Source: Bernardetia sp. ABR2-2B (GTDB taxonomy: Bacteria > Bacteroidota > Bacteroidia > Cytophagales > Bernardetiaceae). Taken from it: a stretch of 64,000 bases of DNA. Below the pieces are notes generated by a model. That model searched no databases and had not been told where the DNA came from. It was given only the letters and a program-made list of their open reading frames with translations. Shown here piece after piece: positions 8,462 to 49,627 of the stretch (position 1 is its first letter; every line of letters begins with the position of its first letter). The stretch lies in contig NZ_CP147020.1 of NCBI RefSeq assembly GCF_037126435.1, positions 3,142,001-3,206,000 on the forward strand, given 5' to 3'. The translations under genes and the position numbers were made by a program.

Positions 8462-8602
8462 GAAGTTGTTTAAGAATATAGATTTTTCCTTAGAATTGGG
8501 TTTGCAAATCCAACTCTAATGGAAAAATAACCTAGCCTTTGTTGGTATTTTAGCGAAGCGACACCAACAAATACACGTATAAAACCTATTCTTAAACAAT
8601 TT
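8462..8602. repeat. Palindromic element, family A, copy 1
   Basis: Ends GAAGTTGTTTAAGAATA (8462) and TATTCTTAAACAATTTT (to about 8603) are inverted repeats. Inside are two hairpins: one centred on TTTGCAAA near 8503-8504 with arms that include one wobble, one mismatch and a bulged T, and one at 8538-8571 with arms TTGTTGGT/ACCAACAA. The copies at 13714 and 49450 share the ends and both hairpins. No reading frame is present. Confidence 0.8.
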
Positions 8603-8667
8603 TATTAATAATTAGGGGACAAAAACAAATTATAAAAACTCTGTTTGTATGAATAGTTGTATTAATA

Positions 8668-12282: not shown

Positions 12283-12459
12283 AGAGCTTGTTTAAATTTT
12301 TATAGTGAAAATGAAAGACCACGAAGTAGTACCGAAGGTAAATTTCAGTCCAATCAAGGCATTTTTGAGAAGAATAGTGAACTATTTAACGATAAAATAA
12401 CGAAGAATGGGCTGAAATTACTCATTTGAAGCCGAAAGAAAAATTTTTAAACAAGCTCT
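12283..12459. repeat. MITE-like element with AGAGCTTGTTTAAA ends
   Basis: This 177 bp sequence has inverted ends AGAGCTTGTTTAAATTTTT and AAATTTTTAAACAAGCTCT. A second, inner inverted repeat pairs GTAAATTTCAGTCC with GGGCTGAAATTAC. It carries no long reading frame. The form is that of a non-autonomous transposable element mobilised by a transposase elsewhere. No second copy is in this window. Confidence 0.75.
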
Positions 12460-13713: not shown

Positions 13714-13855
13714 GAGGTTGTTTAAGAATGGACTTTAGTAGATATATTTGTTGGTGTCGCTACGCTAAAACACCAACAAAGGCTGTGTTATTTTTCCTTA
13801 GAACTGGGTTTGCAAACCCAGTTCTAAGGAAAAATGAGTATTCTTAAACAACTTC
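13714..13855. repeat. Palindromic element, family A, copy 2 (inverted orientation)
   Basis: Ends GAGGTTGTTTAAGAAT (13714) and ATTCTTAAACAACTTC (to 13855) are inverted repeats. The hairpin TTTGTTGGTG/CACCAACAAA is at 13747-13780. A perfect 44 bp palindrome without any loop lies at 13791-13834, centred on TTTGCAAA. Relative to the copies at 8462 and 49450 the whole unit is inverted. It sits between convergent genes, before a separate terminator. Confidence 0.85.
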
Positions 13856-29788: not shown

Positions 29789-29870
29789 GTTTGTTGGTGT
29801 CGCTGTGTTAAAACACCAACAAGGATTTTTAATCCTCAACGACGGTTTTATCCTCGTTGACGGTTGAAGA
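29789..29870. repeat. Hairpin units shared with family A and the CAACGA unit
   Basis: TTGTTGGTGT/ACACCAACAA (29791-29822) is the same hairpin as in the family A elements, in the orientation of the copy at 13747. It is followed by CCTCAACGACGG (29834) and CCTCGTTGACGG (29852), whose TCAACGA/TCGTTGA cores are inverted. The terminal GAAGTTGTTTAAGAAT ends are absent, so this is a partial or separate unit. Confidence 0.6.
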
Positions 29871-33607: not shown

Positions 33608-33743
33608 TTTTGATTATAGAAGTTGTTTTAAGAATAGATTTTTGACTTATCAAAGAGAAATTTTCTCCTCGTCGACGGCTGTATTTTGAACCTCAACGAC
33701 GGTTGTTTTTTCTTTAGGTGTTCCGTAGGAACTACATATTGTT

Positions 33744-33927
33744 AACGTGAACTCGGTATTATATCTGCTGATTGTCAAATAGTTACCCTGTTCTTTTTAA
33801 TCTTCGGTGCTGCCCTTTTGGGCTGACCTTGATTAAAAGTAAGTCAGTCTCGTTAGAGCAGACCGAAAGTAGCTTTCTTAGTAGATAGAGAGATATTTCA
33901 GACTGTTTCTAATACCGAGTTCACGTT
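33744..33927. repeat. 184-bp MITE-like element with 18-bp perfect ends
   Basis: AACGTGAACTCGGTATTA (33744-33761) and its exact inverse (33910-33927) bound a 184 bp sequence. Its interior contains GTCAGTCTCGTTAGAGCAG followed by ACCG (about 33844), which closely matches, inverted, the interior of the elements at 39218 and 51245. Confidence 0.8.
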
Positions 33928-33958
33928 ATTCTTAAGAAATAGAAATTAAATAAATTCT

Positions 33959-34286
33959 GATGTTACGCAATAATGAAGTTTTTGCATAAAGAGACGAAAC
34001 CCACGATTTTAATCGTGGGAAAACAGCATGTTTTATCTTTCCTAACTACACAATATTGATTGGTAACTTATCAAATGATGTTACGCAAAACGTCTGAATA
34101 CGATGCTATTGTACTGGCTTTATTCACTCCATAGGAGTTTCATATTGGTAGAAAATAGAGTTTTGTTTTTCATTATACTCCGTAGGAGTTACATAGTAGT
34201 AGCATCTTGTTTGATTTGTACATAAAATGCTATGAAGTTCCTACGGAACAGAATTTACCAGCTTAATAGCATTATTGCGTAACATC
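33959..34286. repeat. Element bounded by GATGTTACGCAATAATG
   Basis: GATGTTACGCAATAATG (33959-33975) and its inverse (34270-34286) are perfect 17-bp ends. A third, direct copy, GATGTTACGCAAAA, starts at 34077, which suggests either a nested insertion or a composite of two ends. The hairpin CCCACGATT/AATCGTGGG lies near 34002-34020. Confidence 0.7.
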
Positions 34287-34357
34287 ACTAAGTTGATACT
34301 TTCAATTTGATAATTAGTTATTTCCGTAATCTGTAATTGTTCCTAAGCAACTTCTAT

Positions 34358-49449: not shown

Positions 49450-49627
49450 GAAGTTATTTAAGAATAGAAAAAATATTTTCTGTTTGGGATCAGAATAAAG
49501 AGTTTTATTTTTTCCATAAAGTAGGGTTTGCAAACCCTACTTTATGGAAAAAACTACTGCCTTTGTTGGTGTTTTAGCGTAGCGACACCAACAAAAATAG
49601 CCATAAAATATATTCTTAAACAACTTC
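49450..49627. repeat. Palindromic element, family A, copy 3
   Basis: The ends are GAAGTTATTTAAGAATA (49450) and TATTCTTAAACAACTTC (to 49627). A perfect 46 bp palindrome with no loop lies at 49508-49553, centred on TTTGCAAA; the hairpin TTTGTTGGTG/CACCAACAAA is at 49562-49595. The right end overlaps the last codons of the upstream gene, and the left end abuts the start codon of the phosphatase gene. Confidence 0.85.

Follow-up and report, generated by a model that had tools for sequence, protein, structure and literature searches.

Three sites in the window analyzed here (64,000 bp, G000:C1:3142001-3206000 of a 5.38-Mb genome) are almost certainly copies of one non-autonomous MITE linked to the IS5 family. 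On balance we favor a composite reading, in which this IS5-type MITE carries a REP-like hairpin (H1) together with a loopless palindrome (H2) that would occasionally be made symmetrical again by template switching and would then spread. The data support the view that the symmetry of H2 is kept in many copies while its sequence drifts.

Anatomy and distribution of the element

The MITE is about 141 bp long and is bounded by 16-bp terminal inverted repeats (TIRs; GAAGTTGTTTAAGAAT, with 0-3 substitutions at the ends of the three window copies) and by 3-bp target site duplications (TSDs). The first TIR is followed by a spacer of about 17 bp, H1, H2 and the second TIR. H1 reads TTGTTGGTGTCGCT(A/T)CGCTAAAACACCAACAA, then NGGC, and H2, 44-46 bp long, is composed of TTTTTCC, a variable arm, TTTGCAAA, the complementary arm and GGAAAAA. 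The copies in the window occur in both orientations, each between 3-bp target repeats:

8462..8603, minus strand: MITE copy 1; plus-strand order TIR-H2-H1-TIR; TSD ATT/ATT
8483..8527, no strand: H2 in copy 1, decayed; three asymmetric positions, including a 1-base bulge
8539..8570, minus strand: H1 in copy 1; a single arm base altered
13714..13855, plus strand: MITE copy 2; TIR-H1-H2-TIR; TSD ATA/ATA; syntenic site in G002 without element
13748..13779, plus strand: H1 hairpin in copy 2, TTGTTGGTGTCGCTACGCTAAAACACCAACAA, then AGGC
13790..13835, no strand: H2 in copy 2, perfect palindrome; 46 bp including flanking A/T
29791..29822, plus strand: lone H1 outside the MITE, with no adjoining TIR or H2
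49450..49627, minus strand: MITE copy 3, long form of 178 bp; TSD ATT/ATT
49508..49553, no strand: H2 in copy 3, perfect palindrome of another sequence, arms ..CATAAAGTAGGG..
49563..49594, minus strand: H1 in copy 3

Three intergenic copies with common inverted ends had been proposed in the initial annotation, and this is confirmed, their limits now being set by the target duplications. The hairpin it described as constant (H1) is indeed found in all three, one arm base differing in the 8462 copy, and the loopless palindrome (H2) is, as it had read, perfect in the 13714 and 49450 copies and imperfect in the 8462 copy. Copy 3 contains about 36 bp of additional sequence between H2 and one end. 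The perfect-arm H1 pattern matched three times in the window (13748, 49563 and the lone 29791) versus 0 in 100 shuffles, and H1 of the 8462 copy is one base short of it. The lone H1 has a variant loop and is followed by short CGACGG repeats. Folded as single-stranded DNA, the 13714 copy reached -39.9 kcal/mol (z -11.1).

To describe the family we used a covariance model (R1) built from 27 of 32 copies, L003, L018, L021, L028 and L030 being excluded by hand. With 150 of 8382 candidates scored, at least 149 own-genome matches reached E <= 0.01, of which at least 52 exceeded 100 bits. The family suspected from three copies is a mobile one with many more members. Many of the weaker matches were the same palindrome on the opposite strand, or short derivatives. 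Matches at E <= 1e-6 were found in all seven genomes of the genus (150 candidates scored per genome), the best one in G003 being weak (1.7e-9). The perfect-arm H1 pattern occurred 82 times in the own genome and 8 to 75 times in each of the other six members of the genus; a search of 52 further genomes, of which 4 belong to the same family and 48 to the order, gave 0 matches. Among the matches listed, the H1 pattern also extended to assemblies from other Bacteroidota and to a few from unrelated organisms, and short TIR pairs (<260 bp) were confined to the three same-genus assemblies. Element-carrying contigs include Bernardetia sp. MAG-102 and Flexibacter sp. CG_4_10_14_3. None of the open-licence titles and abstract openings listed describes this element or any MITE in Bernardetia; Flexibacter litoralis is merely named for A/T triplex motifs in the passages concerned of one paper (PMC4666352).

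The comparisons below draw on 118 sequence-distinct copies with both ends, of which 64 come from the own genome, 19 from G001, 15 from G002, 14 from G004 and 3 each from G005 and G006. Copies lacking a recognized TIR at both ends were left out, and L285, L287 and L295 have no recognized H1. The counts refer to distinct sequences, de-duplication having removed identical copies at different sites (e.g. L003, L018, L272).

Mobility and the IS5-family link

Exact 3-bp TSDs flank 71 of the 118 sequence-distinct copies and 27 of the 32 copies of the first extraction. In G002, the genes flanking the 13714 copy are kept in synteny (left gene, 95% protein identity; right gene, 91.6% DNA identity) with no element between them; the remaining four relatives that have the left gene are uninformative because the right gene is not kept there. 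None of 30 long-flank copies has an open reading frame (ORF) of 100 codons across the element, and in 2 of the 30 a predicted ORF extends 20-50 bases into its edge.

A full-length relative with a transposase, which the earlier reading had suggested looking for, was found in sister species as an IS5-family insertion sequence (IS) with the same TIR. In G003, one PF01609 match flanked by the TIR of the MITE corresponds to a 931-bp IS, whose 274-aa transposase matches NF033580 (IS5 family, E 3e-40) as well as PF13340 and PF01609; this copy has no matching TSD. Relatives that are 76-78% identical occupy 11 sites in G001 (931-947 bp end to end), with a 3-bp TSD at 10 of them and the transposase frame split in two at 6. 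The TIR of the IS in G001 and G003 is the 16-bp TIR of the MITE with 1-2 changes, and a 948-bp relative in G006 has the ends GAAGCTGTTTAAACTTTT. The own genome gave 0 matches to the IS5-family transposase at E <= 1e-5, and its MITEs therefore lack a detected partner at present; none of the 7 own-genome PF01609 loci examined (out of 20) carries the TIR of the MITE. A TIR-pair search in the first loci yielded no convincing long element, and a PF13586 search gave no lead either.

An IS5-family DDE transposase would move the MITE in trans. A single-strand (Y1) transposase as mover of the whole element is ruled out by the 3-bp TSDs and the IS5-family partner. The single-strand transposase originally suggested thus holds in one respect, as Y1 (REP-associated) enzymes are tied to H1, and fails in the other, as the ends and TSDs imply an IS5-family DDE enzyme. 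Like other IS5-derived MITEs, the element is short, non-coding, intergenic and multicopy, with TIR and TSD as in the autonomous IS5-family element; unlike them, its interior is not a recognizable IS remnant and consists of two hairpin modules also found in other elements.

The window contains other repeats as well. A different 175-bp element at 12284-12458, with TIR GAGCTTGTTTAAATTTTT and, by eye, a TAA/TAA TSD, is probably a MITE belonging to a related family of IS5 type. At 33743-33928 lies an element of 186 bp whose 19-bp ends are perfect (TAACGTGAACTCGGTATTA); 18 bases of these ends also start a stretch common to DDE_Tnp_1 IS copies in G002 (L304 from 1444). Degenerate copies of its TIR enclose about 736 bp (33619-34354), a nest of repeats that includes the 33743 element together with several CTCCGTAGGAG-type hairpins.

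Hairpin modules inside and outside the MITE

H1 is very probably a REP-type hairpin of a Y1/HUH REP-associated transposase. Y1_Tnp (PF01797) is present in 7 of 7 genus genomes, and H1 brackets Y1/HUH genes in three of them (G000:C1:2231750-2232349, G006:C10 and G003:C28; L383, L384 and L379), two of these three loci having been chosen because H1 positions adjoined them. Out of 30 Y1 loci examined, a convincing H1 was found at one (L379), and it was absent from the other 29 and from six further Y1 stretches. The G000 locus has six H1-like hairpins of alternating orientation. The three H1-flanked proteins score 74.6-76.6 bits (E 7e-21 to 2e-21) against NF047646 REP_Tyr_transpos, whose cut-off is 80, and 22.0-22.8 against Pfam Y1_Tnp, whose cut-off is 23. 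Their genes encode 179-199 aa with NHIH and WQ motifs. A Bacteroidetes-type subclass 2.6 is described in the relevant passages of PMC6006769 as having a mean of 179 aa, NH[LIV]H and WQ motifs, and flanking atypical secondary structures that are repeated in the genome. The H1-flanked genes would fit this subclass, judging by motifs read by eye without a tree.

H1 is not restricted to the MITE and also stands alone; among the first 50 own-genome positions listed, 29 lie inside model matches (>=71 bits) and 21 outside. A compensated change is seen in part of the G000 H1s, which read TTGTCGGTG/CACCGACAA. As with the REPs of TnpAREP/RAYT systems (subclass 2.6 in the account given by PMC6006769), H1 brackets Y1 genes and recurs through the genome. 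In contrast to these REPs, its foot lacks the canonical GT[AG]G, being mostly GCCN in MITE and stand-alone copies, and the hairpin is carried inside an IS5-type MITE. A REP inside a MITE has a precedent in QMITE2 of Coxiella burnetii, a MITE containing a GTAG-type repetitive extragenic palindrome (PMC10969869); QMITE2 differs in its ends and its host, and the passages that treat it (PMC10969869) mention no co-varying palindrome. Five other Y1 genes (L356, L358, L359, L362, L363) have C-terminal HHRKRTF-like motifs, perhaps of subclass 1.2 as outlined in PMC6006769, and by eye appear to have short repeated palindromes of their own on their flanks; subclass 1.2 is said there to lack typical terminal structures (PMC6006769).

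Of the 87 near-matches to H2 arms in the own genome, 85 fall inside MITE model matches, and the remaining two lie in a decayed MITE (L397) and in a palindromic repeat of another kind (L398). In G005, H2 is also part of a second MITE-like repeat family of about 161 bp with inverted ends ATGAGTGACATTT (L374, L408, L422, L424, L414 and L087), and there are 38 other matches to the stretch adjoining H2 in this family. Six of its H2 members are readable and two are perfect, in two sequences (L374, CATAAAGTAGGG; L408, CATAACGTAGGG). One further member (L428) has lost H2, and elsewhere L034 and L137 have the ends ATGAGTGACATTT with other hairpins. Among the matches listed in the G004 assembly, H1 lies by eye in a third repeat with ends GTGGTGTTGTAAAAAGTATGAT (L031, L049, L107 and further CAKZOK contigs). 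With hairpin modules common to several repeat families, MITE interiors in this genus look like assemblies of such modules. An H2-like palindrome without MITE ends (TTTTTCATAGAATTGGGTTTATCAATCCAATTCTATGAAAAA; L393/L400, G004:C90) was observed directly downstream from the orthologue of the 13714 copy's neighboring gene.

Symmetry of H2 and its possible origins

The initial annotation had pointed to five arm differences between the copies at 13791 and 49508, every one compensated (arms TTTTTCCTTAGAACTGGGTTTG and TTTTTCCATAAAGTAGGGTTTG), and these are real. Removing from the 118 copies 12 with a tail too short for H2 and 5 with no H2 match left 101. An H2 match was defined by a loose pattern, and the 9 worst copies (>6 asymmetric positions, e.g. 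L207, L209), a few of which may not be H2 at all, were dropped for the change counts, wobble counts, shuffles and divergence ratios, leaving 92. H2 is perfect in 16 of the 101 sequence-distinct copies, in 10 different sequences, and the remainder have 1 to 13 asymmetric positions. In L293 one arm has an extra G and the other an extra C, so that the palindrome stays perfect. Two compensated changes fall on one branch in L257/L258 and L261, and transversions without a G.U intermediate, for example T-A to A-T, are among the double changes. When the 3' arms of 63 gap-free copies were re-dealt, perfect H2 numbered 16 versus a mean of 2.2 (maximum 7), and non-consensus perfect variants 8 versus 1.1 (maximum 5). 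The controls lay within their shuffles: H1 gave 0 non-consensus perfect variants in 88 copies (52 perfect versus a mean of 46.8) and the TIRs 2 in 86 copies (26 versus 21.6); all these shuffles ignore relatedness among copies. The ratio of asymmetry to twice the divergence in the 92 copies was 0.55 for H2 (0.48-0.62, an optimistic interval since the copies are related), 0.81 for the TIRs and 0.83 for H1. The arm covariation test that had been recommended on aligned copies thus came out in favor of H2, and H1 and the TIRs of the same copies do not match it.

Reconstructed changes gave a weaker contrast. On the tree, H2 had about 159 single pair-breaking, 18 paired and 15 restoring changes, versus 129 single and 8 paired for the TIRs and 54 and 1 for H1, and by this measure H2 and the TIRs are much alike. 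The excess of coincident changes over a crude expectation was only modest in H2 (21.5 vs 13.4), the corresponding figures being 12.7 vs 8.4 for the TIRs and 2.0 vs 2.7 for H1. Because parsimony is weak and the TIR control is above expectation too, the case for co-variation rests on the perfect variants, the shuffles and the divergence ratio. Arms of the same copy were only slightly better matched than arms of the nearest relative (1.63 vs 1.85 mismatches; better in 31 copies, worse in 29 and equal in 32), and the symmetry of H2 is therefore largely inherited within subfamilies.

Resident copies decay. H2 asymmetry rises with divergence (rho 0.38, p 2e-4, relatedness ignored), and its slope on H1 divergence is 0.40 (0.19-0.75), overlapping that of the TIRs at 0.73 (0.33-1.38). 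Asymmetric H2 pairs are mostly transitions (174/234), and in the 92 copies G.T (79) and A.C (95) are balanced. G002 and G006 have three common sites: L262/L272 are identical and perfect, and L267/L274 and L269/L275 present one-sided decay with no compensated difference. Such one-sided decay and these same-site pairs indicate that resident copies are not efficiently repaired. The L017 and L009 groups each have a common asymmetric H2 and have still spread, most copies with clean duplications, and four copies without H2 (L190, L192, L200, L270) keep clean target duplications, from which it follows that the IS5-type jump needs no symmetry. The junction of L190, TTATTTTTAAACAAC, recurs in the duplication-free G001 copies L252, L253 and L255, the outcome to be expected from replication slippage across a palindrome. 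Of the earlier claim that symmetry is selected or actively regenerated while sequence drifts, the keeping of symmetry is supported for many copies; the claim fails for resident copies, whose arms decay independently, and for spread, which proceeds without symmetry. Independent decay in relatives, named beforehand together with a lack of further copies as evidence against maintained symmetry, is seen at two of the G002/G006 sites, in a family that is far from limited to three copies. L262 (G002:C5, 20,323 bp) and L272 (G006:C30, 20,388 bp) have 150 bp of identical flank on each side, and their contigs, of plasmid-like size in two species, are a possible route of horizontal spread.

Correction of one arm from the other, also raised in the initial annotation, is the reading of the perfect variants that we favor; template switching is, in our judgment, about evenly balanced as the main source of H2 symmetry. 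A point mutation would make one arm differ from the other, and the polymerase would occasionally switch template inside the hairpin and copy one arm onto the other, so that the new arm sequence would be fixed symmetrically, as a unit, in one step; the re-symmetrized copies would be dispersed by transposition and would then decay again. The transversion pairs agree with such switching because a one-step change needs no wobble intermediate. Template switching has been argued to create compensated RNA stems in the passages concerned of PMC8794818, and quasipalindrome correction as outlined there predicts simultaneous multi-base compensated arm changes without wobble intermediates (PMC8794818). 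Unlike known cases in RNA genes and reporter quasipalindromes, the object here is a multicopy transposon module. No direct template-switch event was observed among the H2 copies compared, and none of the open-licence titles and abstract openings listed describes template switching in MITEs.

The main rival, which we consider unlikely, is that H2 is the recognition hairpin of an HUH/Y1 transposase that reads structure over sequence, with selection for its own mobility keeping the arms complementary. H1, its neighbor in the element, is such a hairpin, and H2 is also present in the second G005 repeat family, with six copies read and two perfect in two sequences. A broken Y1 gene in G005 (L374) lies between an H2 at 1320-1363 and a shortened one near 2088; a third H2 at this locus (1945-1988) is inside a second-family repeat that landed alongside, and the locus is an ambiguous support because one of its H2s belongs to that family. 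The H2s of L374 were accordingly demoted as a REP pair around the Y1 gene. Further against recognition by an HUH enzyme, H2 was found at just 1 of 30 Y1 loci examined, nearly all H2-arm near-matches of the own genome (85/87) are within MITE copies, and the four H2-less copies have clean TSDs, though these may be post-insertion deletions. It is improbable that the compensation is only apparent, produced by exchange of whole H2 blocks between copies and founder effects with no symmetry-restoring force. An identical H2 (CATAAAGTAGGG) in two repeat families and several species, one copy with identical flanks on 20-kb contigs of two species, and an A/T variant at pair 8 that recurs on separate branches speak for such exchange; it moves existing palindromes, however, and does not account for the origin of ten distinct perfect sequences, among them one that gained a base symmetrically in both arms. 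Least probable is the structured RNA of the initial annotation, in which the MITE would be transcribed and a functional RNA hairpin would keep H2 symmetrical: the strong fold and the co-variation of H2 agree with it, and it is disfavored, as is a small RNA, by the balanced G.T and A.C pairs (no strand's wobble is preferentially tolerated, and a strand-specific RNA is therefore not indicated), by mixed gene orientation (in 17 tandem contexts among 30 copies, the element is co-directional with the genes in 8 and opposed to them in 9) and by 0 Rfam matches at the gathering score within the window, while the order of T-run, stem and A-run read from the sequence is the reverse of an intrinsic terminator and rules one out.

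A broader proposal, which we put forward tentatively and regard as rather doubtful, is that H2 is a mobile, sequence-free palindrome module in which symmetry alone is inherited (apart from near-fixed TTTTTCC/GGAAAAA ends and the TTTGCAAA core), which hitch-hikes in different MITE families and is kept by a putative hairpin-reading HUH enzyme or by template switching. If true, selfish DNA would carry its own form of error correction. The element links two transposition systems, a DDE-type MITE with the hairpin of a single-strand transposase. Whether palindromes persist through selection on the hairpin or through replication rewriting an arm has mostly been addressed with RNA genes, in which effects of function are difficult to tell from those of mutation; the multicopy, non-coding H2, with copies of varied age, the TIRs and H1 as controls and a second host family, offers a clean natural test.
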